From the NCBI RefSeq assembly GCF_003473485.1, contig NC_053049.1, positions 7,254,001 to 7,318,000 on the forward strand: a stretch of 64,000 bases of DNA, read 5' to 3'. The notes beneath the pieces were generated by a model that ran no database searches, was not told the DNA's origin, and worked only from the letters and a program-made list of their open reading frames with translations. Position 1 is the first letter of the stretch, and each line of letters starts with the position of its first letter. The translations under genes and the position numbers were made by a program. Source of the stretch: Medicago truncatula. Taxonomy: Eukaryota; Streptophyta; Magnoliopsida; Fabales; Fabaceae. Below, in pieces: positions 1,915 through 49,770 of the stretch.

Positions 1915-2060
1915 CTAATCCTTCATTCTCATGGTTGGTACGAATTGCGATCTCTGGGTGAAGAAATTAGGGTTTGAAAAGGGGATTACGGTTTCAATGC
2001 GCGATTGAAGTTGGTATCTCATACGGATCGAATCAAATGAAGTTTCGTGACTCGTTTTCA

Positions 2061-5816: not shown

Positions 5817-6265
5817 TGTTAATGATGTAATGACATTTCCACTGACTTGTATTTTGTGTTTTGCAAAGTCCAACTTATGCAACTTGTTTAAGACTTGTAT
5901 CTTGGTGTTTGGCTATGTCCCACTTATGTAATAGCAGTACTTGAATTGTCATAACTCTGTGATTTGCTTGGCTAAGTCCAAATTTTGTAACACAAAGTAT
6001 GAACATCAGTTATTATAAGTATTCAACTTTTGGCAAAGAATGAATTATTTTTAAGTATTCAACAATTATAACTTGTGTTTCAAACTTTAATTGCAATCAT
6101 CTTCCAAACATTGACACAAACTAACAAGCCATGATTTCATTCATAAACTTCACATTACATAATAGTTGTACCAACAAAAGTACACAAACACAATACACAA
6201 TTACACAACAAAACATTACACCATAACACACCACAGCTAACATCAAACTTACAAACTACATAACA

Positions 6266-8295
6266 TTACTTCTTAGCAAAGAATACAGCAAAGATCAACC
6301 AGCTAGCTATGATAATCCACTTAAGCAATTCAACCTTCTTCTTCTCAGCCAACACCTTCATTTTCCACTTGTCTTTCTTCTTCTCCCATAATTCACCACA
6401 GTTGCAATGTTGGTTTGTATACCTTCCAGACTTTGCAGACTCAGCTTCACGAATCACAGGTCCATTCACAGGTGCAGACTCATCTTCACGAATCAGATGT
6501 GCATTACCATCTTCACGAATCAATGGTGTGATGTAGTATTTTTGCATCAAACAATAGTAAGTATTTATATCGTCTCCTCAGGGACTAGTGCGATATCGCG
6601 GACCGTTCGACACCAAATATCATTTCAAGTTAAACGATAGTTGATTGTTTGTTTTAGTAACTGAATTGCAAATGATAAAATTGAGATTAATAGGGCGTAA
6701 AACTTGTTAGGATTAGAGTTCCTTGATCGAGCGTCGCACGTAACCTAATGATCATACATGGATTCTAGCTTTTCTTTGATATTATCACGTATCCCTCGAC
6801 AACACCATTCGTGTCCAAACAATATTGTGAAATCAATTGTATCATTCAATGGTCGATGTCTCAAACTATTGAATGATTCAAGAGTCGATCTTATCGTTCA
6901 ATCGATGATTTCTCAATCTATTAAATGATAAGAAAGCTTTAGGTTTGGATACTCAAGGTGATTATCAAAACATCGATTCCATGTCTAGAAACTATGTTTT
7001 GATAGATGGTTATTCTAAACCTAGATTCAAAAGTATTTCTCAATCACAATTAAATCAAAGATAAAGATTAAAGTGCAAGAATAACCTCAATATCAATTCA
7101 AATGCTAGAACCATATATTTATAGATCAAACGATTACATGTTAAACTATGATCAAGTACCTCTAATCCCAACAAAGGAGATTTAGCTACTCATTGTCATG
7201 GAAGCCTTGCAAGAATGAATTGAAGAAGCAAGATTCATTACAACTTGTGATGTCTCAACAAAGGATGAAGAATCCACTCTCTATCACTCTCACTCTATAA
7301 AGCACAAGCCCTATCTCTCTCTCTAAGAATATTACAAGTGAAAACACAGAGAGAAACTAAGTGAAAAACTATGTAAAAACTATCTCTCTCTGAAATGGTT
7401 GAGTGGGCTATTTATAGAATTCTGAGTCTGCCTTCACTCGCCTCGCGAGCTGCTTCATTCGCCATGGCGAGTTGAAGTTTCTTCCCCATTGGGTTTGTGC
7501 CACGTCAGCATTTAGAGGCTAAACCGCCCTTACTCGCCTCGCGAGTCCTTCCATTCGCCATGGCGAGTAAGCTCGCCTTCTACTCGCCATTGCGAGTTGG
7601 TGGCGTGTGATCTTTGTTGCATTCTGGAATTGCTCGCCTTTGCTGCTTGCCATGGCGAGTTGGAGGCGAGTAATCTCCTTTTTCTGCCTTTTTGTACTTT
7701 TCTCGATTTTCTTCTCTTTGCTTGATGTCTTGAGTTCGAATCCTGCACAAATGGGTGAAGTAAGATAGATAAAGCGTAAAAGGGCAATAATCACTTATTT
7801 CTCGGCTTTTCCCTTAATAACTTGCAAAACAAGTAACAAAAGTGCCTAAAATATATCACTTAAATTACAACTTTCTAGCACTTATCATGGTGCAGAGTCT
7901 GCTTCCTTTGAGTTTGAAACAGCTGAATAGCACTGAGCCATTGGTCTGGTAGCTGGACCAAGTTCATCATCCCAAATCCACTCATTGTAGGTTTTGTATT
8001 TTTTCTACATACCAAAGCAAGCATTTTCCAATTTTATTCACTGTCACTGTATTGTATTTACAATACAATGAAAAACGGAAATTTCATAAAATAAAACTTA
8101 CCTGCCAATCGCGACTCTCCAAAACCTCCTGCCTTGATTCTCCAAAGTCGTTGCTATGTAAAGAATCATCGGCTTCATAGGTAAACAACGGCACAGTGGA
8201 AGCATCCCTCGAGATGTGGGCAATGAGGGAGGGGGAAACTTTCCACCATTGCAGTAGGTTTCGTAGTTGTCTTTTGTTGAGGTATCGGTTGACAT
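6266..8295 (-). pseudogene. MULE-A second gene, GRF-zinc-finger-like, split by an LTR
   Basis: Minus-strand gene downstream of and convergent with the transposase. A first exon (8295 to about 8102, ATG MSTDTSTK) contains CRCLP and ENQGRRFWRVAIGR, which resembles the GRF zinc finger (CxC ... NxGRRFWxC). After an intron, a second exon (from about 8004) carries YNEWIWDDE, matching the end of that fold. Beyond the solo LTR (6529-7887) the gene continues as repeated 'REDESAP/REAESAK' units, then a Lys-rich coiled segment and a C-terminal hydrophobic helix (IIIASWLIFAVFFA, stop at 6266). Two expected zinc cysteines are replaced (FWRV, KTYN), and the two N-terminal exons do not join cleanly in frame. 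The family is recognised by pattern only. Confidence 0.65.
6529..7887 (-). mobile_element. Solo LTR inserted in MULE-A
   Basis: Starts tgatgtagta and ends cacttatca (TG...CA), flanked by the 5-bp duplication tggtg (6524-6528 and 7888-7892). At 1359 bp with no internal region, it fits a solo LTR left by recombination. Reading on the minus strand there is a TATA-like tctataaatagcc near 7410 followed by CT/AG-rich leader sequence, so the transcription direction is minus. The long LTR suggests a Ty3/gypsy origin, perhaps the Ogre/Tat group abundant in legumes, but no coding part remains to prove it. Its duplication is still exact, so it is probably not very old and must be younger than MULE-A. 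Confidence 0.85.
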
Positions 8296-8423
8296 TTGCA
8301 ATGTTCAGGAAACAATGATTGAAATGAAATGGAGAAGAAGAAGAGAACGATCTGGAGATCCAGGAAGAAGAGGGTCGCGGTGAAAGAGAAGAGAAAAGGA
8401 TGGTTTTTGAAGAAGATGAACGA

Positions 8424-8686
8424 AGGGTAGTTACGTCATTTTACGTTGCCCTCATCTGAAGAGGGGCATTTTTGTCCATTCTCATGCCCATATAGCTGAC
8501 CTGTCAACTGAAAACCGGTTATACGTTGCCACATCAGTAAACAGATGACCTGGATGCGTTTAACTGGGTACAAGGACCAATTTTTAAGTGATTAATAATT
8601 GCAGGGTTTGTTTGCAAGGATTAGTGATTGCAAGGACCAATTTTTAAACGACCCCTATTTGCAGGGATCAAATACATATTTAAGCC
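8424..8686 (-). repeat. MULE-A right terminal inverted repeat (263 bp)
   Basis: Mirror of 1652-1914, ending ...catatttaagcc. The adjacent 9 bp (taataataa, 8687-8695) repeats the left flank. Confidence 0.93.

Positions 8687-8735
<49 letters not shown>
8687..8735. repeat. (AAT)n microsatellite at the MULE-A right border
   Basis: About 16 AAT units directly abut the right TIR. The left TIR is also preceded by a shorter AAT run, so the transposon landed inside an AAT tract. Confidence 0.95.
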
Positions 8736-13308: not shown

Positions 13309-13947
13309 CTAGCCACTGCCACCAAACACACCCTTAAGCATCATAATTGGTGCAGCATCAAGAAGAGTAGTCTTTTGAATTGTGGAAGTTGGTAAGTTGT
13401 TACCAAATAACAAAGGACTAATTACATGTATGCTAGGGTTTGAGCTACTAAAAGCAGCATAAGCAATAGCATTTCCATCACCAGAGTTAAATTGAAAATG
13501 CAATAGTCCTATTGGAAAAACCCAAACATCACCAGGATTAAGAATTTTCACCAAAAGTTTTGTAGGTGTGATGAATCCAACAGTAATTTGACCTTGAATA
13601 ACGATTAGTAATTCAGTTGCATCAGGATGAGTGTGCATTGGTACACTTCCATTTATACCAATATCTATTCTTGCTGCAGATAACTTATGTCCATTGAGAC
13701 CTGCTAAATTACTGACATTTACCGAGGTTAATCCAACTTTAAAAGGGTTTGCTGTGTTTCCAGCAGCTGCTAAGCTAGAGTACATGAAATCATCCGCTGT
13801 TACAAATTTTTCTGATTTGCATGGATAGCCTGAAGGGGTGTCTGATGTAAGAAATAAGTTTGCTACACAGAAATCATCAGAATCAATAGCATTGGTGGTA
13901 AATGAGATTAGGGCAAAAAAGAAAAGAACAATTTGGATCATCTTCAT
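13309..13947 (-). CDS. Germin-like protein, ABP19-type cupin (GLP1)
   Basis: Single-exon gene for 212 residues, a normal length for germin-like proteins. An N-terminal signal peptide (MKMIQIVLFFFALISFTTNA) is followed by the mature start IDSDDFCVAN and the second conserved Cys in GYPCKS. The metal-binding cupin motif 1 is intact (HTHPDATELLIVIQG: two His, one Glu), as is motif 2 (NPGDVWVFPIGLLHF, with the third His). The product is expected to be a secreted, oligomeric, Mn-binding apoplastic protein. Relatives include auxin-binding ABP19/20 proteins and some superoxide dismutases; activity cannot be told from sequence. It is divergently placed against three related plus-strand copies. A TATA box lies at 13993-14001. 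Confidence 0.93.
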   Translation of the reverse strand: MKMIQIVLFFFALISFTTNAIDSDDFCVANLFLTSDTPSGYPCKSEKFVTADDFMYSSLAAAGNTANPFKVGLTSVNVSNLAGLNGHKLSAARIDIGINGSVPMHTHPDATELLIVIQGQITVGFITPTKLLVKILNPGDVWVFPIGLLHFQFNSGDGNAIAYAAFSSSNPSIHVISPLLFGNNLPTSTIQKTTLLDAAPIMMLKGVFGGSG

Positions 13948-13992
13948 CTTTGAAATTTGTGTGTGGGATGAGAGAATAATGAGATTGGTTTG

Positions 13993-14001
13993 CTATTTAT
14001 A
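13993..14001 (-). promoter_or_regulatory. TATA box of GLP1
   Basis: On the minus strand this reads TATAAATAG, 46 bp upstream of the ATG. The same TATAAATAGCAAA context precedes GLP4 at 19971, so the promoters are paralogous. Confidence 0.75.
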
Positions 14002-14150
14002 ATGTATTAATATTCATACAAGGTGTGTGTTTAGAGCCTTAGCTTGCTTAGTAGCTGTAAAATGTAATAGCTAGTAATAGTTTTCTTAAGGCAACGTAAC
14101 CTTAGAGTCATCTTGCATGAATGTAAGCTGTTCAGAAATAAATAAATAAA

Positions 14151-14465
14151 GGCTTAATTGCACTTTTGGACCCCTATCTTTCCAAAAGTTGCGGTTATGG
14201 ACCCCTAACTAATTTAAATACAAAACAGCCCCCTATGTTTTGATTCTTTGGCAGTTTTGGACCCCCAAGACAAAAAAAACATAAAAAATTTGACACGTGG
14301 CACCTCACTTAGGGTGCCACGTCAACGTTGACCGAGTCAACAATGGACTGGGGGTCCAAAACTGCCAAAGAATCAAAACATAGGGGGCTGTTTTGTATTT
14401 AAATTAGTTAGGGGTCCATAACCGCAACTTTTGGAAAGATAGGGGTCCAAAAGTGCAATTAAGCC
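14151..14465. mobile_element. Mutator-type MITE, almost fully palindromic (315 bp)
   Basis: Begins ggcttaattgcacttttgg and ends with its reverse complement. The two arms match nearly throughout (about 140 bp each), around a centre with cacgtggca / tgccacgt. Flanked by the perfect 9-bp duplication ataaataaa (14142-14150 and 14466-14474). It has no coding capacity. It lies between the divergent GLP1 and GLP2, in their shared upstream region. Confidence 0.93.
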
Positions 14466-14879
14466 ATAAATAAATGCCTATCTGTCTATATAACTAACTT
14501 ATACCAACCTATCTATGCACCTATTTCTATTTATTTATAACTAATTTAATATGAGTTCAACATAATCTAAATTTGTTTTGAATTCTTTTAATAATGCTTT
14601 TACTGATATTCTTACGTAAGAATAAAATTAGATTATTATGATTTACTTATACCATACATATTTCTTTCAAGTATTAAATGCATATAAGTTTTCTTCTAAA
14701 CAAATTAACATATCTTACCCTATCGTATCTTGAATTTTAAAAATTTGACATTTCTCTATCGTTTCGCACCCACACTCGTACTCTGTATCCAGATTTCATA
14801 GCTCTAAGTTTAGTTGTTGTGGAGTATATTTTATCGGTATGCAACCTAAAGCTCAATGTATCTATCATTTCATTGACAC

Positions 14880-14888
14880 TATAAATGG
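14880..14888 (+). promoter_or_regulatory. TATA box of GLP2
   Basis: TATAAATGG, 48 bp before the GLP2 ATG, in the same position and context as the TATA boxes of the other germin-like copies. Confidence 0.7.
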
Positions 14889-14935
14889 CAAACCAACCCC
14901 CTTATATTCTCTTATTCCAAATCGAATTTTGAAAG

Positions 14936-15571
14936 ATGAGGATCATTTACATTACTCTTTTCTATTTTTCTCTTCTCTTATCATATGCCTCTTATGCTAC
15001 TTCAGTCAATGATTTCTGTGTTGCAGACTTACAGCTTCCAAATACCCCTTCAGGCTATCCATGCAAGTCAGAAACAAATGTAACAGTGGATGATTTTTTA
15101 TTCTCCGACTTTGTACCTAGAAACACAATAGACCCTTTTAATGTTAGATTAACCACTGCATTCGTCACTAGTTTACCAGGTCTTAATGGACTTGGTATCT
15201 CCGCAGCAAGGGGGGACTTTGGCTTAAATGGAACTGTTCCAATGCATTTTCATCCTGATGCAAATGAATTGCTTATCGTAGTTAAAGGCCAGTTAACTGC
15301 TGGATTTATTACACCAACAAAAGTTGATTTGAAAACTGTTAAACCTGGTGATAGTTTAGTTATTCCAAAAGGACTTTTACATTTTGGAGTTAACACTGAT
15401 GTTGGAAATGCTATTGCTTCTGCTTTTTTCAGTAGCTCAAACCCTAAAATGGAAATACTTGATTATCTATTATTTGGCAACGATTTATCAACTTCAATAA
15501 TCGCAAACCCAACTTTACTTGATGTGTCACAAATTATTAAGCTTAAGGCTCAGTTTCGTGGCAGTGGCTAA
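14936..15571 (+). CDS. Germin-like protein, ABP19-type cupin (GLP2)
   Basis: Single-exon gene for 211 residues. A hydrophobic signal peptide (MRIIYITLFYFSLLLSYASYA) precedes the mature part, beginning TSVNDFCVADLQLP. Cupin motif 1 is MHFHPDANELLIVVKG and motif 2 is KPGDSLVIPKGLLHF, with all three His and the Glu in place. A potential N-glycosylation site (NGT) precedes motif 1. It is closest to the truncated copy at 17308, with which it shares coding sequence and 3' flank (both followed by 'cttatgaatccacttctatgttt'-like sequence), so those two are recent duplicates. A secreted apoplastic protein is expected. Confidence 0.93.
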   Translation: MRIIYITLFYFSLLLSYASYATSVNDFCVADLQLPNTPSGYPCKSETNVTVDDFLFSDFVPRNTIDPFNVRLTTAFVTSLPGLNGLGISAARGDFGLNGTVPMHFHPDANELLIVVKGQLTAGFITPTKVDLKTVKPGDSLVIPKGLLHFGVNTDVGNAIASAFFSSSNPKMEILDYLLFGNDLSTSIIANPTLLDVSQIIKLKAQFRGSG

Positions 15572-16129
15572 GATTTCTTATGAATCCACTTCTATGTTTG
15601 CTCCAAATTTAGTTATGTCAACAATATGTATGTGTTTGGTTTTTGTGTTTTTATGTCAATTTTCATTTTATTTAATAAAGCAAGAGAGTATAGTATGGTT
15701 CCTAATTTTTACATTGTATCAACGGTTTTTATCTTTACCAACCATTTGCATGTCATCAAGACTCGATATTAAGGAGCTAGGATTTTTTCTTTTTAAACAA
15801 AAAGGGAGCAAATGGAAGCCCATTTGCTAACCCATAGATAGACTAAACGTAAAAAGTACAAGCAACTGGGGGCGTAAACCTGATCCAGTGGATTAGGCAT
15901 GCATTTTAACCAGGAACATGAATTGGGAATTTTTCGCCTAGTAATAATGTACCATAAATTCAATGACTTGGCATTGCGACATTTAGGTATGTTGTATTAT
16001 TATGTCCAGTACTTATTGTTTGACAGATTAAAAACACCCTTAGTAGCATAATCCACTGTTAACTGTAATAATTAGCCATCATGCATGTATTAAATATATT
16101 CGACTTTTATATTTGTTGATAGCGATGTC
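15572..16129 (+). other. 3' flank of GLP2, no further gene
   Basis: Probable 3' UTR, with an AATAAA-like signal (ttaataaagc) near 15671. No other gene or clear repeat was recognised before the LINE fragment. Confidence 0.6.
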
Positions 16130-16511
16130 AAAGTGGACCGCCAAATTCGACCAAAGTTTTAGACTTTTTTGGAAGTTGCTTCTTCATAGGGTTCCTAGCC
16201 ACCAAAATATCTTTCGTTGTAGGTTTATCCTTGATTTGAGTGGCTTATCATGTGTGTTTTGTGGGGTATTAGTGGAGTACGTTAGGTGATCACTTTATGT
16301 CATTTGTGATTTCGTTTTCAAGGTGTGGTATAGTGTTTGTAGCTGGTTAGGTTGAGAATTGGTTTTTTCTCTGAATTTGGCAGGGCTTTTCACAGTTTTT
16401 TGGTCTATAAGCGACAAGTCTAAGATTTAGGTTTGATTTTGGTCAAACATTTTGTTTTGTAGTCCATATAGAAGGTTTGTAATGACCTTAATTTTTTTAG
16501 GAAGGCAACAG
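16130..16511 (+). mobile_element. LINE (L1-type) 3' fragment
   Basis: Conceptual translation shows pieces of the zinc-binding tail common at the end of plant L1 reverse transcriptases: WKLLLHRVPSHQNIF, then CVFCG, then FVFKVWYSVCSWLG. The coding frame is interrupted by stops and frame changes, so it is a dead fragment. It is cut off on the right by the LTR sequence at 16512. Confidence 0.7.
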
Positions 16512-17307
16512 TGTTGGAACAAAATTCAATTTTTACAATGTCTCTGAAGTTTTGATGATAACAAAGTATTGAAGAACTATTTTATATGCTAATATATGTT
16601 TAAGTGTGCACGACCATAGATTAAAATTCATCAAGGTCTGAACATGTATGAGAGCATCAGAAGCACAAGTAAATTTGAAAACTTAGATTAGATCCTGAAG
16701 AAGCTTGACCTGACTCTTAAGGCTATCAGACTCTGAAGGATAGAAGACTCTGAGTCTTCTATCCTTCAGAGGCATAACAAAGTAAATTTGAAAACTTAGA
16801 TTAGATCCTGAAGAAGCTTGACCTGACTCCGAAGGTCATCAGACTCTGAAGGATAGAAGACTCTGAGGATTTGCAAACACTCTGAAGGACATGTCATACT
16901 TTGTCTTCTTCTCAAGATGTCCCTATCAGACTCAGATAGTACAGTTTTTCTTCTTCTGAATCATGTGCTAAGTCAAATTCAAGGACAAAAGGAATGAAAC
17001 AGATAATTCTATTTGCAGCAATAGATTTTGAATGTCTTTTCAAATGGTATTAACCATATCATGCAACATTCCAACATCTTGATTTGATTGCTTCTCAAGG
17101 ACTCTTAATACGCTGACACTTCTCCAACGTCTCTCAAATCCTTCCTTATATAAGAAGTTAAAGACTTGAAACATAACAAGACTCTGCAATTTTAACTTGG
17201 GCCCTTACTTTGTCAAATTTTGAAGTGCATAAACACTTAAGAATTTCTTACTAAGTTCAGATCTTAGAAAATTCTAAGAGTCATACTATGTTTTGAAGTT
17301 GATTACA
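16512..17307 (+). mobile_element. LTR fragment, copia-like, with internal duplication
   Basis: Begins tgttggaacaaaattcaat and contains 'gttttgatgataacaaag', a phrase I associate with copia (SIRE/Maximus-like) LTRs. It includes a TATA-like ttatataagaag near 17150. A roughly 125-bp internal segment (containing gatcctgaagaagcttgacc) is present twice. It abuts germin-like coding sequence at 17308 with no target duplication visible, so a deletion or rearrangement followed insertion. No internal retroelement region remains. Confidence 0.65.
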
Positions 17308-17894
17308 CCTCTTATGCTACTTCTGTCAATGATTTCTGTGTGGCAGATTTACAGCTTCCAAACACTCCTTCAGGCTATCCATGCAAGTCAGAAACAAATG
17401 TAACAGCAGATGATTTTGTGTTCTCTGGCTTTGTACCCGGAAGCACAATATTAGACCCTTTTAATGTTACATTAACCACTGCTTTTGTTACTAGTTTACC
17501 AGGTCTTAATCGACTTGGTTTCTCTGCAGCAAAGGGAGACTTTGGTATAAATGGAACTGTTCCAATGCACTTTCATCCTGATGCGACTGAATTGCTTATC
17601 ATAGTTGAAAGCCAATTAACTGCTGGATTTATTACACCGGCAAAAGTTTATTTGAAAATTGTTAAACATGGTGATATTGTAGTTTTTCCAAAAGGACTTT
17701 TGCATTTTTTAGTTAACACTGGTGTTGGAAAAGCTGTTATTTTTGCTGCTTTAAGTAGCACAAATCCCACCATGCAAATACTTGATTATCTATTATTTGG
17801 CAACGATTTATCAACTTCAATAATTGCAAACACTACTTTACTTGAAGTGTCACAAATTATGAAGCTTAAGGCTCAGTTTGATGGCCGTGGCTAA
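17308..17894 (+). pseudogene. Germin-like copy lacking its promoter and signal peptide (GLP3)
   Basis: Homology to GLP2 begins abruptly at 17308 (cctcttatgctacttctgtc), inside the signal-peptide codons. The promoter, ATG and most of the signal sequence are replaced by the LTR fragment. From there a continuous open frame runs to the normal stop: NDFCVADLQLP, MHFHPDATELLIIVES, then KHGDIVVFPKGLLHF. Cupin metal ligands are kept, but the usual Gly after motif 1 is Ser and the Pro of the PGD turn is His. Without a start and signal peptide it is unlikely to yield a secreted protein, unless the LTR supplies a new 5' exon. Confidence 0.85.
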
Positions 17895-18535
17895 GATTGC
17901 TTATGAATCCACTTCTATGTTTGTTCCAAATTTAGTTATGTCGGCAATAAACTTATGTATGTGTTTCGTTTTTTTGTTTTTATGTCGATTTTCATTTTTT
18001 AATAAAGCAAGAGAAAAGTAGGGTTCTTAATTTCTTATATTATATATCAACTGTTTTTATTTTTACCATCAATTTAATTTAATTTGCACTAGATTTAGAC
18101 CCACCTGTTGCGCGTGCATGAGTTTGTCATGTCCTCTTTCTCTGACTCTTCCTAACTAATTTCGACTTTTTGGGTATCATCTTCCTTTAAATCCACTTCC
18201 TTACTTGTTGGATGTGGTGGTGAGATGGAGAAAAAGTTACTCTTGACATGGTAGAAGAAGACACAAAACCAGCAACTGTAAAACTCTTCAGCCATTAAGA
18301 AGATTCTACAGTAATAACAAAGACAATTGAAATGAAATACTTTTAATGGCTACCTATGTTTAGCAGAATGCATTATCATATGCTCATGTGGTGGCATATA
18401 TGCAATATATCAATTAGCTTAAGATATTCAAAATTTACTGCAACTGCAACATAAGATGTGATTTTACTAAGCTCTTCTTGATATAGTATGTAAAAATGAT
18501 GCTAATCACCAATTTGAATACCAGAAACAAGATCT
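17895..18535 (+). other. 3' flank of GLP3, otherwise unremarkable
   Basis: The first 110 bp parallel the GLP2 3' UTR. The remainder has no recognised gene or repeat. Confidence 0.6.
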
Positions 18536-18543
18536 CTCCTGAA

Positions 18544-18832
18544 TAGGGTTGGGAATAGGCCAGGCCGGCCTAAAGGGGCCTATGGCCTGGCTTGTTTAAG
18601 CCTAGCCTAGCCTGTTTATTAAAAAGACTAGGCTTAGGCTTTTTAGTGACTTTAATAGTAAGTAGGCCTGTAAATAGGCTTTCAGGTCAGGCCAGACATT
18701 TAAATAGGCCAGGACAGGTCAAAAAAATAGGCCTATGAAAGGCCATATGCCAGGCTCAGGCCTGCAAATTTTTTCGTAGGCTAGGCTCAGGCCTATTAAA
18801 GTCTGGCCTGGCCTGGCCTATTCCCAACCCTA
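18544..18832. mobile_element. hAT-type MITE (289 bp)
   Basis: Terminal inverted repeats TAGGGTTGGGAATAGGCCAG at both ends, with a perfect 8-bp target duplication ctcctgaa (18536-18543 and 18833-18840). Both features fit the hAT superfamily. The interior is full of AGGCCT/GGCCTG-type short motifs in both orientations. It has no coding capacity. Confidence 0.93.
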
Positions 18833-18849
18833 CTCCTGAATCAAATATA

Positions 18850-19970
18850 TATTTGTTGAAGTCAAATTGAACAATTACAACTAGTCTGGATAAATGAAAT
18901 AAGTAACCATGAGTGGGAAGAGGGATTATAATGAACATTGAACGAAACTTTTTCTATTACATACTTGAAAGCAGACTTGACGACGTTATTGAATAGAGGA
19001 GGGGGCGACTTTTTGAAAAATCGAGAGGGTGTGAATGTTTTTAAAGAAACTTTAGGGGATATCAATATATTTCTCCTTTTTTACTATTATTTGTGTTTGA
19101 ATTATTCTATTGCATTAAATTGCAAAGAAATATAGTCCCTGAAAAATGTATTTGTACCATAATCTCAAATTATTATGCACAAAAAAAAAAGTTAGAGATC
19201 AAACCATTGAGTACTTGGTTAAGAGACCTAAATCCCTTAACATTTGGAGCAATTCATCGTTGATACAATTAATTTAAAGAAACTCTTGCTTACATCCATA
19301 GGAATTTTGATCCCCCTATATGTCACTACATACAATGAATAAATCAAACTTGAAGTTTTTCGTCAACTTGTTCTTGTTTTGCCTTGGTGGAATTACCTCA
19401 TATAAAATTAATATTAAAATTATTATATACATCATATATATACTTATATAGAGTGTGAGACTCGTAAACTTGCATCAAACTACATCAAAAAAACAACCAA
19501 AAAAATATATCCAAAACATCAAAAAACACGCTTCAAATTGTAAATGGATGTGTCCCAATTCTAGAATTTGAACGCCAAAAACATGCTTCAAATTCTTAAA
19601 ATTTTGACATAGTCACTTTTGGAAAAGCGAGTGCACGTGAGACATGTGGAGAGGTGAAAAATTCTCGAAAAGAATTGAATTAAAAAGAGGTTCATATTAG
19701 AACGCGAAATATATATAGGGTGGGGGAGAAGTGTAGGTAGGGGATAAGGAATTCACTTGTTTTCAAGCATGTTATTAAGATGCTTGGATCATTTTAAAAC
19801 AAGGGTCTAGCAAGCCAAACTATTTAGCCATACCAAAATTGGCATTTGGAAACATTAATTAATAGAAATAGATACATAGATAGGTTGGTATAAATTAGTT
19901 ACATAGATAGTACATTCATAGAAATTAAGCAAGCTACAAGGCTATATGCACCTTGTAAGAATATTAACAC
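18850..19970 (+). other. Intergenic and upstream region of GLP4
   Basis: No gene recognised. The last 130 bp (tacatagatagg...caagctac...gcaccttgtaagaatatta) match the upstream region of GLP1, marking a shared promoter block. Confidence 0.6.
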
Positions 19971-19980
19971 TATAAATAGC
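19971..19980 (+). promoter_or_regulatory. TATA box of GLP4
   Basis: TATAAATAGC, 55 bp before the ATG. The surrounding ccttgtaagaatattaacac is shared with the GLP1 promoter. Confidence 0.75.
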
Positions 19981-20025
19981 AAAGCTATCTATTATTCTCT
20001 TATCCCACATCCAAAATATTTAAAG

Positions 20026-20664
20026 ATGAAGATGATTCAAATTATTCTTTTCTTTTTAGCTCTTATCTCATATACCTCAAATGCTATTGATTCTGATGAT
20101 TTCTGTGTAGCAGACTTATCGTTTCCAGACACCCCTTCGGGCTATCCATGCAAGTCGGAAAACAATGTAACAGCTGATGATTTTGTATTCTCTGGCTTAA
20201 ATATAGCTGCAAACACGTCGACAAACTCTTTTAAAGTTGCATTTACCACTGTAAAAGTCGATAAGATACCAGGTCTCAATGGACTTGGTATCTCTGTAGC
20301 AAGAATAGATCTTGGCTTCAATGGAAGTGTACCAATGCACACTCATCCTGGTGTAGGCGAATTTATAATCGTCATTCAAGGTCAAATGACTGCTGGATTT
20401 ATCACACCTAAAAAAGTTTTTATGAAAACTCTTAATCCTGGTGATGTTTGGGTTTTTCCAACAGGACTTTTGCATTTTATTCTTAACACTGGTCCTGGAA
20501 ATGCTGTTGCTTATTCTGCATATGCTAGCTCAAATTTCAACACTCATTTAACTGATTTTTTGTTATTTGGTAACAACTTATCAACTTCCACGGTTCAAAA
20601 GACTACTTTTGTTGATCCTGCACAAATTATGAAGCTTAAGGTTAATTTTGGTGGTAGTGGCTAG
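20026..20664 (+). CDS. Germin-like protein, ABP19-type cupin (GLP4)
   Basis: Single-exon gene for 212 residues, most similar to GLP1 (near-identical signal peptide MKMIQIILFFLALISYTSNA and mature start IDSDDFCVAD). Cupin motif 1 reads MHTHPGVGEFIIVIQG and motif 2 NPGDVWVFPTGLLHF, so the three His and the Glu ligand are kept. An N-glycosylation site (NGS) precedes motif 1. A secreted Mn-binding cupin of the cell wall is expected. Sharing both promoter and coding sequence with GLP1, it probably arose from the same ancestor by inverted duplication, while GLP2 and GLP3 form a second pair. Confidence 0.93.
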   Translation: MKMIQIILFFLALISYTSNAIDSDDFCVADLSFPDTPSGYPCKSENNVTADDFVFSGLNIAANTSTNSFKVAFTTVKVDKIPGLNGLGISVARIDLGFNGSVPMHTHPGVGEFIIVIQGQMTAGFITPKKVFMKTLNPGDVWVFPTGLLHFILNTGPGNAVAYSAYASSNFNTHLTDFLLFGNNLSTSTVQKTTFVDPAQIMKLKVNFGGSG

Positions 20665-35372: not shown

Positions 35373-35578
35373 CTTCTTGATTATTGTACTTGTTGAATAA
35401 TCAAAGATTCAAATATCAAAACCCAATTCTTCTTCTTATAGTTTATTCCATGACCCTCTTTTTTTTTTTTGGTCAAGTCCTAAACTCCTTTTTCTTCAAC
35501 CAAACAAAAAAGTTTAGAGTTTTGCTGTTTCCACATATAGTATGGCTGTGCCACACCAGTAATTTACGCAAATACCCT

Positions 35579-35987
35579 CTCGGCAGTTAACTGCCGAGGT
35601 TTTTAAGAAACCGGCGGCAGTTAACTACCGAGGAATTCCTCGGTAGTTAACTGCCGAGGAAAATGTTTCATCCGATGAAACAGCTACCTGCTCCCCCTAC
35701 ACACTATTTTTCATCACCTTCATTTCCAACCTCATTTCAATCCCAAAATCCATTTTTTCTATAATCAATTTTTGATCCAAAATCATTCAAGCATCAAGCA
35801 TAGGAGGTATCAACACACTATTGACGTAAAAAAACAGGTATTGTGCGTTTTATTTGAGTCATTTTTTGGATGTTTTAGGGGTATCTACGTCAGTTACGTA
35901 GAACCCTGTCATGGGAATCCTCGGCAGTTAACTGCCGAGGAAAACTTCGGTTGTTTAGTGCCGAGGAAAACCTCGGTAGCTAGGTAC
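35579..35987. repeat. Left array of 22-bp palindromes in MULE-B
   Basis: Variants of the perfect palindrome cctcggcagttaactgcc (then gagg) occur at 35579-35598, 35611-35633 (half-diverged), 35638-35659, 35919-35940 (perfect 22 bp), about 35944-35965 and 35966-35987. Matching forms lie at the right end (40070-40091 and 40096-40118). Repeated symmetric motifs near both ends suggest transposase binding sites, or a hairpin-forming terminus. Confidence 0.9.
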
Positions 35988-36160
35988 CGAGGAACTCTTG
36001 GTGAAAATTTTCACCACGAAAAAATGGCAGCCACTGCCAAATTTTCAAAAAAAAAATTCTTTTGTTTTTTTTTTTGTTTTTTTTGTTTTGATTCATTATG
36101 GCATTGATGTTTATGCATTACTTAGTTATTAATTCATATTTATGTGTTATTTAATTATAG
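35838..36160 (+). other. Probable 5' UTR intron of the MULE-B transposase
   Basis: Donor aaacag|gtattgtg at 35837/35838 and acceptor ttaattatag at 36160 bracket an intron that would join the leader to the ATG at 36163. Three of the palindromes would lie within it. Confidence 0.45.
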
Positions 36161-36162
36161 TA

Positions 36163-38106
36163 ATGGTAAAGAATGCGAAAGATGTTCCGGGAGAGACAAA
36201 AGAAAATTTTGTCGAAAATTCCGGAGATGTCAAACCGCCTAATTTTGAAGCGAAAACAAACATAGATGAAGCTTCCGTCCATGTTGAAGCTTCAAAGTAT
36301 GTTGGCGGCTCCGGTGTACTCCCACTTCAACCCCACGAGGTCGACACGGCTAAGTTTTTTTCAGACGACGTTAAGTCGAAAAATAGAGATGAATTGCTTG
36401 AGTGGGTGCGCCGACAAGCAAATAAGGCGGGATTTACCATTGTCACACAAAGATCAAGCTTGATCAATCCAATGTTCCGGCTAGTGTGTGAAAGGAGTGG
36501 AAGTCACATAGTTCCGAAAAAAAAACCGAAGCATGCGAACACGGGCTCAAGAAAATGCGGTTGCTTATTCATGATTAGTGGATATCAAAGTAAGCAAACA
36601 AAGGAATGGGGATTGAACATTCTTAATGGAGTTCACAACCATCCCATGGAGCCGGCTTTAGAAGGACACATTCTTGCCGGTAGATTAAAGGAGGATGACA
36701 GGAAGATCGTACGTGACTTGACCAAGAGCAAGATGCTTCCAAGAAATATTTTGATACACTTGAAGAACCATAGACCACATTGCATGACAAATGTGAAGCA
36801 AGTGTACAATGAACGTCAACAAATATGGAAGGCAAATAGGGGTGACAAGAAGCCGTTGCAATTTCTAATCTCGAAGTTGGAGGAGCACAACTATACTTAT
36901 TACTCAAGAACACAACTTGAAAGTAATACTATTGAAGATATTTTTTGGGCTCATCCAACATCCATTAAATTGTTTAACAATTTTCCAACGGTTTTGGTTA
37001 TGGACTCCACGTACAAGAACAACATGTATAGGATGCCAATGTTTGAGGTAGTTGGGGTGACTTCAACCGATTTGACATATTCGGTTGGGTTTGGATTTAT
37101 GACACATGAGAAAGAAGAAAACTTTGTTTGGGTTTTAACAATGTTGCGTAAACTTCTTTCGTCAAAGATGAATATGCCTAAGGTGATTGTTACCGATAGG
37201 GATATGTCTTTGATGAAAGCGGTTGCACATGTTTTTCCGGAAAGTTATGCATTGAATTGTTTTTTTCATGTGCAAGCTAATGTTAAACAAAGGTGTGTCT
37301 TGAATTGTAAATATCCTTTGTGCTTTAAAAAGGATGGGAAAGAGGTGAGCAATCGGGATGTGGTGAAGAAGATAATGAACGCATGGAAAGCTATGGTTGA
37401 ATCTCCCAATCAACAATTATATGCAAATGCATTAGTGGAGTTCAAAGATTCATGTAGTGATTTCCCAATTTTTGTAGATTATGCCATGACCACCTTGGAT
37501 AAAGTGAAGGACAAAATTGTGAGGGCATGGACAGACCATGTGTTGCATCTTGGTTGCAGGACCACAAACAGGGTCGAATCGGCCCATGCTTTGTTGAAGA
37601 AATACTTGGACAATAGTGTGGGTGATTTGGGTACTTGTTGGGAGAAAATACATCACATGTTGTTGCTCCAGTTGACCGCTATACAAACATCCTTTGGTCA
37701 AAATGTTTGCGTGTTGGAACATAGATTCAAAGATGTCACTTTGTACTCGGGGTTAGGTGGTCATGTGTCTAGAAATGCTTTGGACAACATTGCTTTGGAA
37801 GGAAAACGTTGTAGGGAAACATTGTGCATGGACAATGACATTTGTGGTTGTGTTCAAAGGACATCTTATGGACTACCATGTGCATGTGAAATTGCTACAA
37901 AACTCCTTCAAGAGAAGCCAATTTTATTGGATGAGATATACCACCATTGGCTTCGGTTATCTATGGGTGAACAAAGTAATGAAGATGCTTTTTGTGTCGA
38001 GGTTGAGTTGAAGGCTATTGTAGAGCGTCTAAAGAAACTCCCTTTCCAAATGAAGCTTGAGGTCAAAGAGGGTTGCGGCAATTGGCATTTCCTGAAACCA
38101 CCTTGA
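36163..38106 (+). CDS. MULE-B transposase, FAR1/FHY3 type
   Basis: Open frame of 647 residues from ATG 36163 (MVKNAKDVPGETKEN); an ATG 21 bp upstream lies before a likely acceptor. A FAR1-type DNA-binding region (about residues 75-160: CERSGSHIV ... CGCLFMISG ... GVHNHPM) precedes the MULE transposase core. Catalytic acids are visible as D in LVMDSTYKNN, D in VTDRDMSLMKA and E in NRVESAHALL, with CFFHVQANVK between. A SWIM-like finger follows (CGCVQRTSYGLPCAC, last ligand Cys in place of the usual His). The C-terminal residues after KLEVKEG run out of frame relative to the conserved continuation, which is found in the next ORF, so this is probably the N-terminal part of a larger transposase-OTU protein split by loss of one T near 38073. 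Confidence 0.9.
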   Translation: MVKNAKDVPGETKENFVENSGDVKPPNFEAKTNIDEASVHVEASKYVGGSGVLPLQPHEVDTAKFFSDDVKSKNRDELLEWVRRQANKAGFTIVTQRSSLINPMFRLVCERSGSHIVPKKKPKHANTGSRKCGCLFMISGYQSKQTKEWGLNILNGVHNHPMEPALEGHILAGRLKEDDRKIVRDLTKSKMLPRNILIHLKNHRPHCMTNVKQVYNERQQIWKANRGDKKPLQFLISKLEEHNYTYYSRTQLESNTIEDIFWAHPTSIKLFNNFPTVLVMDSTYKNNMYRMPMFEVVGVTSTDLTYSVGFGFMTHEKEENFVWVLTMLRKLLSSKMNMPKVIVTDRDMSLMKAVAHVFPESYALNCFFHVQANVKQRCVLNCKYPLCFKKDGKEVSNRDVVKKIMNAWKAMVESPNQQLYANALVEFKDSCSDFPIFVDYAMTTLDKVKDKIVRAWTDHVLHLGCRTTNRVESAHALLKKYLDNSVGDLGTCWEKIHHMLLLQLTAIQTSFGQNVCVLEHRFKDVTLYSGLGGHVSRNALDNIALEGKRCRETLCMDNDICGCVQRTSYGLPCACEIATKLLQEKPILLDEIYHHWLRLSMGEQSNEDAFCVEVELKAIVERLKKLPFQMKLEVKEGCGNWHFLKPP

Positions 38107-39119
38107 TGTCTCCACCACCACGAAAAGTACCAACCAAGGGAGCAAAGAAAAAAGTCGACATTGCGAGGTCTAAAGGAAAAATTACATCGACTAGTCGGAT
38201 CCCTTCTTCTTGGGAGGTTGTTGATTCCCAAAATCCGGATAGCCAACCGTCACCATCACCAACTACATCATCATATAAAAGGAAAAAAGGTGCTCGTCTT
38301 GGTAAAACATCACTTTCCCCACTTCCACCACCTACTCGGTATCCAAAGCCTAAAGCTATCCCGGTTATGCGTCCTATTGATTATATGCCACGCTTCATGC
38401 TTCCATTTATTGAAAAAGTGGTGGATGTTATCGGCGATGGACATTGCGGATTCCGGGCTATAGCGGAGTTCATGGGCTTGACCGAAAAAAATCATCTCAT
38501 GATCCGTACACATCTTATCCAAGAGTTGATGGATCATAGAGATGATTATGTTGAAGTATTTGCGGGTGAGGATCGTTATAACTACATTTTAAACGGATTA
38601 CATCCTCCCGCAAATACAAAAACTTGTGCACATCTTGTTGATAAGTTGTTGACATTTCCGGACATGGGACACATTGTTGCTAATTATTACAAAATGTGTG
38701 TGGTTGTGTTGACAAATCTTGAAGTTGGAAAATCGGAATCGTTTTTCCCACTAAGAGGGCCACCACCGCCGGGTAATCAAAAAACTCCCATCTTGTGCCT
38801 TGGGGCAATTCCAAATCATTTTGTGCTTATTTCCTTGAAGAATGGTTGTCCACTACCTCCATCATCTACGGAGTGGCACAATCACAAGAAAGAAGATGCG
38901 GTGACTTGGGAAGATGAGTATTTGGATCGACATGACTTGTTCCGAAAGCTCATGGCTATTGAAAGTGGAAACAAACCGTGCAAACCACAAAAGGAGTCAA
39001 ACAAAGCGGCGCCTATTTTGTTGGACACTCCCGAAAAACCAAAGCAACAATTTGAAGTTATTGCGGAAGATGAGGAAGATTCTATGTCACTTGATCTTCT
39101 CCAATCACTTGGTCTTTAA
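38106..39119 (+). CDS. MULE-B OTU-like cysteine protease domain protein
   Basis: First ATG at 38106 overlaps the transposase stop as TGATG, but the frame is open from 38073 upstream, where it reads LRQLAFPETT. A basic linker (KVPTKGAKKKVDIARSK) and Ser/Pro-rich segment lead to an OTU domain. The Asp-Gly-x-Cys nucleophile motif is GDGHCGFRAIAEFMG and the catalytic His is in PNHFVLISL, about 140 residues later. OTU enzymes are deubiquitinating cysteine proteases; in a transposon the substrate is unknown. The C-terminus is acidic. The DGHC and His motifs are intact, so activity is plausible. Confidence 0.85.
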   Translation: MSPPPRKVPTKGAKKKVDIARSKGKITSTSRIPSSWEVVDSQNPDSQPSPSPTTSSYKRKKGARLGKTSLSPLPPPTRYPKPKAIPVMRPIDYMPRFMLPFIEKVVDVIGDGHCGFRAIAEFMGLTEKNHLMIRTHLIQELMDHRDDYVEVFAGEDRYNYILNGLHPPANTKTCAHLVDKLLTFPDMGHIVANYYKMCVVVLTNLEVGKSESFFPLRGPPPPGNQKTPILCLGAIPNHFVLISLKNGCPLPPSSTEWHNHKKEDAVTWEDEYLDRHDLFRKLMAIESGNKPCKPQKESNKAAPILLDTPEKPKQQFEVIAEDEEDSMSLDLLQSLGL

Positions 39120-39248
39120 TGAGTGATTTTTTTGTCGGTGTTAGTTCTTTTTTTTTGGTAGAAATTACACCGATGTATTTTTTTGGGTCGAAATTGTAAC
39201 GCCAATTTTTTGGTGGCCAATATATAACTAACATTATGTAATTTATAT

Positions 39249-39250
<2 letters not shown>

Positions 39251-39290
<40 letters not shown>
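39251..39290. repeat. (AT)20 microsatellite inside MULE-B
   Basis: Uninterrupted AT dinucleotide repeat between the OTU gene and the third ORF. Confidence 0.97.
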
Positions 39291-39293
<3 letters not shown>

Positions 39294-39437
39294 AATATGA
39301 TTTTTATGTGGAGAAAATAATGCAATACTAATTTATAGCTTTTTAATGTTTTCCGCATTTCATTTATTCGTTATTACATTCCATTTAATTTTGTTCTAAT
39401 ATATGATTCTTTTGTTACAAAATTTTTCAAGTGAGAC

Positions 39438-39782
39438 ATGTCTGAGGTTGCACAAATTGAAGGGCGGGTTAGGTACTCCGCGTTTAAAAAGACGGTTAAG
39501 GTTATGATAACGCCGACGGACTCTCTTGACAATTTGAAAGCACAACTTAACACTTATTTTGAGCATCTTGGTGAAAATCAATATACACGTCACTTGTTTG
39601 GTCAAATGCCATGCATAGACCTAGGAGAAGATAGAGATGAATACGCATGGAAAACGGCAAGCTATATGCCTTTGCTTATTCGCGACGACGGCGACGTCGG
39701 ATTTATGTTTCGGAATATGGTGGAAGACAATATATTATATATGTATGTTCGTTCCATATGTAATTACATTGAATGTAAGTAG
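39438..39782 (+). CDS. MULE-B third ORF, small protein of unknown function
   Basis: ATG frame of 114 residues (MSEVAQIEGRVRYSAFKKTV ... CNYIECK) inside the element, on the same strand as the transposase. No catalytic or zinc motif. The pattern YMPLLIRDDGDVGFMFRN followed by NILYMYV resembles the PB1-like N-terminal segment that many plant mudrA transposases carry ('dddv..mf...' then a hydrophobic strand), so it may be a detached version of that domain. This is inference from pattern only. The frame is intact and codon-like, supporting a real gene. Confidence 0.65.
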   Translation: MSEVAQIEGRVRYSAFKKTVKVMITPTDSLDNLKAQLNTYFEHLGENQYTRHLFGQMPCIDLGEDRDEYAWKTASYMPLLIRDDGDVGFMFRNMVEDNILYMYVRSICNYIECK

Positions 39783-40069
39783 GGATTTAATTTAATGATG
39801 TGTAATGAGTAGTTTAATTATGGACACTTTGTAATGTTTTGATGAATTTCAAACGTCTGTTTAATTTTAACCAAATGTCGGTTTAATTTAATTATGAACA
39901 ATTGTAAAAGATATTGTATTTATCTTCATTATGTCCGAGTTTCAATCATACATATGAATTATATTACCTTTGGAAATGCTCTGGTTTAATTACAGGTAAA
40001 AATTGGCCGAAAAAATGGCTTGGAAATACTTAGAATTATGCAGAACCTGCTGTCTGCATAATCAAATTT

Positions 40070-40118
40070 CCTCGGCCGTTAACTACCGAGGTTTTCCTCG
40101 GCAGTTAACTGCCGCCGG
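40070..40118. repeat. Right palindromes of MULE-B
   Basis: cctcggccgttaactaccga (then gg) at 40070-40091 and cctcggcagttaactgccgc (then cgg) at 40096-40118, inverted counterparts of the left array. Confidence 0.9.
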
Positions 40119-40215
40119 TTTCCTAAAAACCTCGGTAGCAAACTGCCGAAGGGTATTTTGGTATTTTACTCGTGTGGCACAGCCAAACAACATGTGGGAA
40201 CAGCAATACTCAAAA

Positions 40216-40271
40216 GTTTATTCTTAGGAGTCACAAAAAAGTAAGTAAGTTTATTCTTAGGAGTCACAAAA
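40216..40271 (+). repeat. 33-bp-period direct repeat beside MULE-B
   Basis: gtttattcttaggagtcaca occurs at 40216 and again at 40249, overlapping the MULE-B target duplication. Confidence 0.85.
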
Positions 40272-40289
40272 TAGTTTATTCTTTAACCC

Positions 40290-47114: not shown

Positions 47115-48105
47115 TAATGACTATTAGCACGGGACATATATCTAGTTTATAAATAATTTGTCTTGCTTTTTTACGTTTATATGATTAGTTTTTTTTTTTA
47201 GGGAAAGTTTGTATGATTAGTTATTTCCATCATAATATTTATTGATATATACAAACAAACAAAATTGTACAATAAATACGGATATTTTGGAGGAAAAAAA
47301 TTATGTAGTAAAAATTTGAAATCGAACGTTATAAAAAGCTACATAAATTTTTGGGTTAAATAAGTTTTTTATCCTCAAAAAATTAAACAAACATATTTTA
47401 AGATAGTGGTAGTACATATTTTCAACACATTATCTCCTGTTAATTTAGATTAAAATCAGTCCCTCTAAATTGGGAAGGTCCAAAACTTTTGACAAAATCT
47501 ATGTACAGTAAATTTTAATCAATTAAATTAAATATAGTACATTGAGTTGCATATCATTTTTGTCTTCACAATTTAAAAATACAAATTTATGACCTATTAA
47601 CAACAAAATACAGTACAAAACCCATCCAGACATAAACTTTCAAGAATTATGAAATTAGTCAAATATTGGTTGCCGGCTAGAGTTTTGTATATAACCTATC
47701 ACATTCTTCAACACATAAATTCAATCTTAAACAGTATATATGAATCTCCTATATAATACAAAAAGAACAAGTTAACCACCCAACATAAACAAGAGACAAC
47801 CTCGTCTGCTAGTTGCCTATGTAAACCATTAAAAAACATCAATAAAACATCACATCTTCCAAACCAAACAGCACACAAACAATTAGAAAATTCCCTCATT
47901 TGTCACTACTAGGTAATTATCAATCCTCTATGCTTTATTTTATAAGTACATGCTAGAAACTATTGAACTCAAAAGTCTTTGGTTCTATGATCTAATACCT
48001 ATCCTCCTCTTGTTTTTGGTCAATGATCCAACACTATTAACCTCTTCAAACCCTTCAAATTTTCTTCTTCAATATCTCATAGTTTTTTTCTGTTTTTTCA
48101 TTACA
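47115..48105 (+). other. NSP1 upstream region
   Basis: Contains the likely promoter and 5' UTR of NSP1. An in-frame ATG at 47950 would extend the NSP1 frame by 52 hydrophobic residues. No other gene recognised. Confidence 0.6.
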
Positions 48106-49770
48106 ATGACTATGGAACCAAATCCAACATCAGATCACATTCTTGATTGGCTTGAAGGTTCTGTCTCTTTCTTTCCATCATTTTTGGATGATCCATATAA
48201 CAATGGTTACATCCATGAGTATGAGATATGGAATCAGAATCAAGATATAAGTAACCAGTACCAAATTGATGCCAATACTAATTCTTCTAATGCCACAAAT
48301 AGCACAACCAACATTGTTGCTGCTAGTACTACCACAAGTACAACATCCCTTGAGCCTAATAGCTTTAATAACATACCCTTTTCAGATTTGCCGAAGAAAC
48401 GAAATGCCGAAGATGAACTAAGTCTCAAAAAACAACCTCAAAACCAAAAGAACAAGAGACTTAAGAGTCGTCCGATGAATGAAAGTGATAATGGAGATGC
48501 AGCTCTTGAAGGGACAGTGGTTAGAAAATCTGGTGGGAACAAGAAAGGTGCAGCTAAGGCCAATGGAAGTAACAGTAACAATGGAAACAATAAGGATGGT
48601 AGGTGGGCTGAGCAGTTGCTCAACCCTTGTGCTGTAGCCATAACCGGTGGAAATCTGAATCGTGTGCAACATCTCTTATATGTTCTCCATGAGCTAGCCT
48701 CAACTACCGGTGATGCCAACCACCGGCTTGCAGCACATGGTCTTCGAGCATTGACACACCATTTATCTTCATCTTCGTCATCTACCCCATCAGGGACTAT
48801 TACTTTTGCATCTACAGAACCGCGATTCTTCCAAAAGTCATTACTGAAGTTCTATGAGTTTAGCCCTTGGTTTTCCTTTCCTAATAACATAGCAAATGCT
48901 TCCATTCTTCAAGTTCTAGCTGAAGAGCCGAACAATTTGCGCACCCTTCACATCCTTGACATTGGAGTCTCTCATGGTGTGCAATGGCCAACTTTTCTAG
49001 AGGCCTTGAGTCGTCGACCTGGTGGACCTCCTCCTCTTGTTCGCCTTACTGTCGTTAATGCCTCTTCATCCACTGAAAATGACCAAAACATGGAGACCCC
49101 ATTTTCAATAGGTCCATGTGGTGATACTTTCTCTTCTGGACTCCTTGGTTATGCTCAGTCCTTAAATGTCAATCTGCAGATAAAAAAGCTTGATAATCAT
49201 CCATTGCAGACATTGAATGCTAAAAGTGTTGACACATCCTCTGATGAAACCCTTATTGTCTGTGCTCAGTTCAGGTTGCATCACTTGAATCATAACAATC
49301 CTGATGAAAGAAGTGAGTTTCTGAAGGTGTTGAGAGGCATGGAGCCTAAAGGGGTGATATTAAGTGAGAACAACATGGAGTGTTGCTGCAGTAGTTGTGG
49401 CGATTTCGCCACTGGATTCTCACGAAGAGTGGAGTACTTATGGAGGTTTTTAGATTCAACCAGTTCGGCATTCAAAAACCGTGACAGTGATGAAAGGAAA
49501 ATGATGGAAGGCGAGGCTGCAAAAGCATTGACAAACCAGCGTGAAATGAACGAAAGGAGAGAAAAATGGTGTGAAAGAATGAAAGAAGCAGGGTTTGCAG
49601 GGGAAGTATTTGGAGAGGATGCAATTGATGGAGGTCGAGCTTTGTTAAGGAAGTATGATAATAATTGGGAGATGAAAGTAGAAGAAAATAGTACAAGTGT
49701 GGAACTATGGTGGAAGAGCCAACCTGTTTCTTTCTGTTCTTTGTGGAAACTGGATAAACAACCAGAGTAG
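48106..49770 (+). CDS. NSP1: NSP1, GRAS transcription factor of symbiotic signalling
   Basis: Intronless frame of 554 residues, matching from memory the Medicago truncatula NSP1 protein (start MTMEPNPTSDHILDWLEG). The N-terminal part is Asn/Ser/Thr-rich with a basic nuclear-signal-like stretch (KKRNAEDELSLKK, NKRLKSR). The GRAS domain fills the rest: the first leucine-rich region from WAEQLLNPCAVAI, the VHIID-equivalent LHILDIGVSHGVQWP, then PFYRE/SAW-type segments ending WWKSQPVSFCSLWKL. Known role: acts in the nucleus downstream of the calcium- and CCaMK/IPD3-decoded Nod- and Myc-factor signal, binds AATTT-type elements with NSP2 to switch on early nodulation genes such as ERN1 and ENOD11, and is needed for strigolactone biosynthesis genes. 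Single copy here, unlinked in function to its neighbours. The start was chosen at the second in-frame ATG by match to the known protein. Confidence 0.98.
   Translation: MTMEPNPTSDHILDWLEGSVSFFPSFLDDPYNNGYIHEYEIWNQNQDISNQYQIDANTNSSNATNSTTNIVAASTTTSTTSLEPNSFNNIPFSDLPKKRNAEDELSLKKQPQNQKNKRLKSRPMNESDNGDAALEGTVVRKSGGNKKGAAKANGSNSNNGNNKDGRWAEQLLNPCAVAITGGNLNRVQHLLYVLHELASTTGDANHRLAAHGLRALTHHLSSSSSSTPSGTITFASTEPRFFQKSLLKFYEFSPWFSFPNNIANASILQVLAEEPNNLRTLHILDIGVSHGVQWPTFLEALSRRPGGPPPLVRLTVVNASSSTENDQNMETPFSIGPCGDTFSSGLLGYAQSLNVNLQIKKLDNHPLQTLNAKSVDTSSDETLIVCAQFRLHHLNHNNPDERSEFLKVLRGMEPKGVILSENNMECCCSSCGDFATGFSRRVEYLWRFLDSTSSAFKNRDSDERKMMEGEAAKALTNQREMNERREKWCERMKEAGFAGEVFGEDAIDGGRALLRKYDNNWEMKVEENSTSVELWWKSQPVSFCSLWKLDKQPE

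Follow-up and report, generated by a model that had tools for sequence, protein, structure and literature searches.

Ubiquitin- and SUMO-type proteases occur in transposons of several superfamilies, and the reason for this is unsettled. A stretch of 64,000 nucleotides of the Medicago truncatula genome (NC_053049.1, positions 7,254,001 to 7,318,000 of the forward strand; here called the window, to which all coordinates below refer) raises the question in a plant. A Mutator-like element (MULE) spanning 35517-40211 of the window (4,695 bp) encodes a transposase, an OTU-like cysteine protease domain and a small third open reading frame (ORF). Is the protease a gene that the element picked up, or a part of its transposase? 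We lean, with moderate confidence, towards a reading in which the transposase of this MULE runs into a C-terminal OTU domain, with the junction frameshifted in the present copy; the OTU would act in cis, ORF3 would be an accessory protein, and the palindromes of the terminal inverted repeats (TIRs) would be bound and silenced.

The boundaries of the element are given by its termini:

35508-35516, no strand: left target site duplication (TSD) AAAAGTTTA, an exact match to 40212-40220
35517-35664, + strand: left TIR, 148 bp, with three palindrome units of 22 bp (35578, 35612, 35638), from alignment to the right TIR
40065-40211, - strand: right TIR, 147 bp, with three palindrome units (40070, 40096, 40130), MIR2629-like, from TIR alignment, unit scan and Rfam
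40212-40220, no strand: right TSD AAAAGTTTA, an exact match to the left copy

The exact 9-bp TSD is inside the 8-11 bp expected of a MULE. The TIRs begin with GAGT and are identical at 128 of 148 aligned positions, a divergence that we set aside as a measure of age because the TIRs of MULEs need not be identical at the outset. If one switch of frame is permitted, the stretch formed by ORF1 and ORF2 contains no stop codon before the final one, against about 66 expected in 984 random codons of the same composition. The initial annotation had described a MULE at 35517-40211 with exact 9-bp duplications and mostly open frames, and both statements hold. The element is a once-mobile, nearly intact MULE, probably of the FAR1/Jittery-like kind. 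A tblastn search of the window with its three proteins revealed no second copy; outside the element the strongest match has an E-value of 0.56. A 29-bp direct repeat (97%) at 40214-40275 begins inside the right TSD and is perhaps an older insertion-site scar.

The answer to the question depends on two overlapping frames:

36163-38106, + strand: ORF1, MULE transposase of 647 amino acids, from Pfam and motif readings
38061-39119, + strand: ORF2 frame, OTU-like cysteine protease domain, with an ATG at 38106, open from 38061 and overlapping the end of ORF1, from Pfam, PDB matches and codon scoring

ORF1 is identified by its domain matches as a MULE transposase with an N-terminal zinc finger of the FAR1/AFT type (WRKY-GCM1). 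The Pfam MULE domain (PF10551) matches over model positions 1-99 of 99 with an E-value of 8.6e-26, AFT matches above its cut-off (E 1.2e-07), and FAR1 scores 24.7 bits (E 3.9e-05), below its cut-off of 28.1; the FAR1-type transposase initially proposed is thus upheld, with this reservation about the FAR1 score. Of the PDB sequences only one, the AFT2 DNA-binding domain, reaches E<=1 (E 9e-05), and a scan of PHROGs gave one weak match, to a transposase. Motif reading yields D281, D345 and E472, together with C366xxH369, as candidate catalytic residues, roles that we take from general knowledge of MULE transposases, and C109, C132 or C134 and H158/H160 as candidate zinc ligands of the DNA-binding domain. 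Residues 561-575 form a SWIM-like motif, CxC-x9-CxC, in which a Cys replaces the last His of CxCx(n)CxH; Pfam gives no SWIM match in ORF1 at E<=1.

From its ATG, ORF2 extends over 38106-39119 and encodes 337 amino acids, which are numbered here from that ATG. The Pfam OTU domain (PF02338) matches residues 110-161 with 15.6 bits (E 0.024), short of the cut-off of 23.3. A comparison with 177,635 PDB sequences gave only three matches at E<=1, all of them OTU deubiquitinases: OTUD3 (E 0.023) and two OTUD5 entries (E 0.36 and 0.37), which align on the same Cys box as Pfam. This box, D111-G-H-C114, is intact. The candidate catalytic His, H238 in NHFV (within NHFVLI), was picked by eye, the profile matches ending near residue 161. 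OTU histidines lie near the end of the domain, as does H238; many OTUs carry Asp or Asn two residues after the catalytic His, where ORF2 has Val. We term the domain OTU-like because the Pfam score is sub-threshold, and because tests covered the Cys half, the His half being assigned by eye. The earlier claim of an OTU protease with both motifs intact therefore stands for the Cys box, as aligned with OTUD3 and OTUD5, and for the His amounts to a by-eye reading outside the cover of any profile.

The stop codon of ORF1 (TGA, 38104-38106) overlaps the ATG of ORF2 in the sequence TGATG, and the ORF2 frame is free of stops already from 38061, upstream of this ATG. We scored both frames over 38070-38105, leaving stop codons out. 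With codons trained on the undisputed coding parts of the element itself, the ORF2 frame is better than the ORF1 frame by 5.3 nats, a preference matched by two of 932 overlapping and none of 78 non-overlapping control windows, in a test made somewhat too generous by controls drawn from its own training parts. The context of the ORF2 ATG is poor (T at both -3 and +4), and 64 ATGs precede it on the + strand between 36157 and 38105, all frames counted. Because of the open frame from 38061, the codon preference and a poorly placed ATG behind so many others, we consider that transposase and OTU probably form a single protein, which one frameshift in the overlap 38061-38104 has split in the present copy, and not two genes. 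The frameshift would sever the OTU, and the present copy therefore probably makes a transposase without it. The initial annotation had placed the OTU protease beside the transposase; more probably, the OTU is the transposase's own C-terminal portion. No canonical slippery heptamer for programmed -1 frameshifting was seen by eye at the overlap. A spliced intron restoring the frame between ORF1 and ORF2 was considered and judged unlikely. Proteins with a transposase of the ORF1 type that continues directly into an OTU presumably occur in plant databases, and serve as a lead, not as a test.

The third coding region lies between the OTU frame and the right TIR:

39438-39774, + strand: ORF3 exon 1, small beta-grasp-like protein, with the unspliced ORF running to 39782, from sequence matches and a low-confidence model
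39775-39995, + strand: predicted intron, GTAAGT...ACAG, 221 nt, 74% AT
39996-40033, + strand: predicted ORF3 exon 2

Unspliced, ORF3 (39438-39782) encodes 114 amino acids, and its predicted spliced product has 124. The chance that one given stretch of 114 codons is open at the composition of ORF1 and ORF2 is about 4e-4, uncorrected for the choice of stretch, which bears out the third ORF of the initial annotation. Pfam gives no match for ORF3 up to E 10. The model (mean predicted local distance difference test, pLDDT, 38.7) places two strands and a helix before further helices and strands, a beta-grasp-like order, and the best sequence match is ubiquitin, with a single-domain E-value of 0.93 among PDB sequences. 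The Smith-Waterman score against ubiquitin is 51, equalled in one of 1000 shuffles, and a single block of 20 residues carries it; the corresponding z of 6.6 is inflated, as ubiquitin was picked for being the top hit of ORF3. As controls, two PB1 comparisons with ORF3 reached z-values of 1.6 and -0.5, and comparison of the OTU ORF with ubiquitin one of 0.1. PB1-like domains open other MULE transposases, and ORF3 may alternatively be of this kind. Ubiquitin E-values down to 4e-12 were rejected, the best of them summing nine polyubiquitin repeats of 4.7-6.4 bits each. A C-terminal Gly-Gly is absent from both forms of the protein, which end in ...YIECK unspliced and in ...KKWLGNT in the predicted spliced form. 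We read ORF3 as a small beta-grasp-like protein with a weak match to ubiquitin, probably encoded by a spliced gene.

The ends of the element carry a series of palindromes, which continues inward of the left TIR:

35838-36160, + strand: predicted 5' untranslated region intron, GT...AG, 323 nt, 66% AT, with its 3' end 2 nt upstream of the transposase ATG
35907-35997, no strand: subterminal array of three palindrome units (35919, 35945, 35971), MIR2629-like, from unit scan, Rfam and folding

The repeated unit is a perfect 22-bp palindrome, CCTCGGCAGTTAACTGCCGAGG. Ten positions on the + strand of the window match it at 15 or more of the 22 bases; nine are in the element (17-22 of 22), three in each TIR and three in the subterminal array, which lies in the predicted intron, and one is outside, at 47800 (15 of 22). 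Scanning for a 16-base core with at most three mismatches gave eight matches where 0.03 would be expected, seven of them in the element. The Rfam microRNA family MIR2629 (RF04063) matches the element six times at E<=0.01 (2e-16 to 1e-6), in every one of the three palindrome clusters and on both strands. The two matches in the left TIR (35571-35645, - strand, 67.9 bits; 35600-35664, + strand, 63.5 bits) exceed the 60-bit cut-off; those at the right end (40059-40129; 48.5 and 45.4 bits) and in the subterminal array (35907-35978; 41.3 and 37.0 bits) are below it, and MIR2629 is not found above the cut-off elsewhere in the window. Hairpins of neighbouring TIR palindromes match positions 1-66 of the 66 of the model, and the four RNA strands folded have hairpin z-scores of -6.5 to -10.8. 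What is catalogued as a microRNA precursor is here part of the transposon termini, and the MIR2629 'microRNA family' looks like a set of hairpins formed by adjacent palindromes in the TIRs of this family of transposons. If so, related TIRs would be repeated in the host. The string '2629' is absent from the main text of three Medicago small-RNA papers (PMC3160423, PMC2621214, PMC4212123).

MIR2619 is a second catalogued microRNA family of the window located in a transposon-like hairpin. An Rfam match to it (14223-14393) lies inside a perfect 117-nt inverted repeat at 14151-14465 that resembles a miniature inverted-repeat transposable element, and the published miR2619b sequence is found at this site with one mismatch on each strand. 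The family is named in two M. truncatula papers (PMC3160423, PMC4212123), in the latter of which miR2619 was discarded by a filter for probable small interfering RNAs (siRNAs).

Other explanations of these observations have to be weighed. Were the OTU a separate captured gene translated from its own ATG at 38106, the overlap of this ATG with the ORF1 stop and the otherwise open state of both frames would suit it, and captured Ulp1 genes can stand alone in MULEs (PMC13317346, PMC2528002). Codons taken from seven host gene stretches give no favour to the fused reading either: they prefer no frame over 38070-38105 (difference -0.13, reached by 336 of 932 controls). We nevertheless regard a separate gene as quite unlikely in view of the poor ATG context behind 64 upstream ATGs, the signal of the ORF2 frame ahead of the ATG with element-trained codons, and the generally recognized inefficiency of re-initiation in plants, here after an ORF of 647 codons. 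The domain might also be inert, a remnant that is decaying or has a structural role only and does not remove ubiquitin, as the sub-threshold Pfam score, the Val two residues after the His and the probable break in the frame of the present copy would allow; with the Cys box and the candidate His both present, and 337 codons open against about 22 stops expected at the computed per-codon rate, this too is unlikely.

As for MIR2629, its curation by Rfam as a microRNA family agrees with a genuine host microRNA gene, whose likeness to the TIRs would stem from a captured host gene or from an exapted TIR. The matches number six, occupy all three palindrome clusters of one transposon and both strands, and lie within or close to a TIR, which forms an inverted repeat in its own right; this makes such a gene quite improbable, and the removal of Medicago miR2619 as a probable siRNA in one study (PMC4212123) points the same way. 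Several results weigh against the reading of a transposase-OTU fusion with silenced palindromes that we favour. They comprise the missed OTU cut-off and the restriction of the Pfam match to the Cys half of the domain; the poor AlphaFold models (mean pLDDT 39.6 and 38.7, the latter for ORF3); the generous controls of the element-codon test and the neutral outcome with host codons; the four of six MIR2629 matches under the Rfam cut-off; and the origin of MIR2629 in Medicago small-RNA data, which is presumed. To these is added the lack of usable relatives in the viral, prokaryote, phage and plasmid collections scanned. IMG/VR scans with P0001, P0002, P0003 and three sub-peptides confirmed nothing for five of the six queries; the remaining query hit four loci (L001-L004), each with one match of 18 residues (61-67% identity, E 2e-4), which were judged to be chance. 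Prokaryotic genome contigs contained no relative in one sub-peptide scan, palindrome-pattern scans of prokaryotic genome contigs and viral contigs gave none, and tblastn found none on plasmids (P0001 only) or phages (P0001 and P0002 only).

The element is unusual and not unprecedented, an OTU in a MULE having already been listed for a cnidarian. MuDR-6_HM, a cnidarian MULE of group 14 (Dupeyron et al. 2019), is tabled with a single ORF and an 'Ovarian Tumour Gene' (PMC6446971 Table 1). Being a MULE listed with an OTU is what it shares with the Medicago element; it has an animal host and no tabled TIR, belongs to a separate group, and is likened here by its table entry, not by sequence. The plant MULEs of the Jittery group (36) share the N-terminal FAR1 domain and TIRs, there of 39-292 bp, and are listed with a C-terminal SWIM or CCHC motif; the same table gives them a TSD of 8 bp or none stated and no OTU, whereas our element has a 9-bp TSD and a SWIM-like motif ending in CxC, followed by the OTU-like domain. 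Like KI-MULE/Kaonashi and other MULEs carrying Ulp1, it is a plant MULE that encodes a ubiquitin/SUMO-related type of cysteine protease (PMC2528002); Ulp1 is of a different family and acts on SUMO-like proteins, and the domain of KI-MULE is in reverse orientation to mudrA. The presence of Ulp1 in plant MULEs is established, as the initial annotation had stated, and extends to Jittery-like MULEs of melon (PMC2528002, PMC13317346). Ginger1 resembles our element in having an OTU (or Ulp1) as a C-terminal transposase domain, and differs in that its transposase is of the Gypsy-integrase type and the families tabled are all animal (PMC2836005). The earlier suggestion that an OTU would be a different way for a transposon to act on ubiquitin signalling is supported as to a MULE with an OTU-like domain, and is qualified by the OTUs already described for the cnidarian MULE and Ginger1. 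Among the matches listed from open-licence literature, no description of a plant MULE with an OTU was found.

A second, MuDR-type MULE at 1636-8702 has 279-bp TIRs of 96% complementarity and encodes MULE, DBD_Tnp_Mut and SWIM domains in two coding stretches; a long stretch near its 3' end may, by eye, be a nested insertion. The best alignment of its first coding stretch with ORF1 covers 51 residues with 27% identity, and Rfam gives no match to any family in its region at E<=0.01. On this comparison it is of a different kind from the OTU-carrying element. Elsewhere in the window are an uninterrupted GRAS ORF at 47995-49767 (PF03514, E 1.2e-75), which we take to resemble the Medicago-type nodulation regulator NSP1, a gene of the NB-ARC/LRR class, and a cluster of four mutually similar ORFs at 13309-20664, one on the minus strand, which are presumably of germin-like type.

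How might such an element have worked? The main gene of the ancestral element would have encoded a transposase with an OTU-like cysteine protease as its C-terminal extension. In relatives that still function, the palindrome arrays of the TIRs would probably be bound by the transposase, and the OTU may act in cis, trimming ubiquitin either from the transposase itself or from host proteins of the transposition complex and thereby stabilizing the complex; ORF3 would serve as an accessory protein, small and of beta-grasp type. Related roles have been proposed elsewhere: an active part in transposition for the OTU and Ulp1 domains of Ginger elements, for example via DNA repair factors (PMC2836005), and the shielding of transposition proteins from degradation for the deubiquitinases of helitrons (PMC9741609), where transposon OTU domains are stated to be not yet assayed for activity. 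Transcripts of the palindromes may form hairpins and be processed by the host to the small RNAs catalogued as MIR2629. By analogy, the palindrome arrays upstream of the transposase recall the tandem motifs of VANDAL elements that are bound by the anti-silencing VANC proteins (PMC5735166). One could go further and imagine that the family carries a ubiquitin toolkit of its own, consisting of an OTU fused to the transposase and, as a second protein, a ubiquitin-like one with a beta-grasp fold, and that this toolkit counters host silencing by MIR2629-type RNAs from its own TIR palindromes; this is a speculation to which we give very little credence.

If the catalogued MIR2629 precursors are indeed hairpins of transposon ends, this family would have to be read differently, and the element family would be tied to small-RNA silencing. 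Should transposase and OTU prove to share one frame, a compact plant element of this kind would make the role of proteases in transposons accessible to a tractable test.

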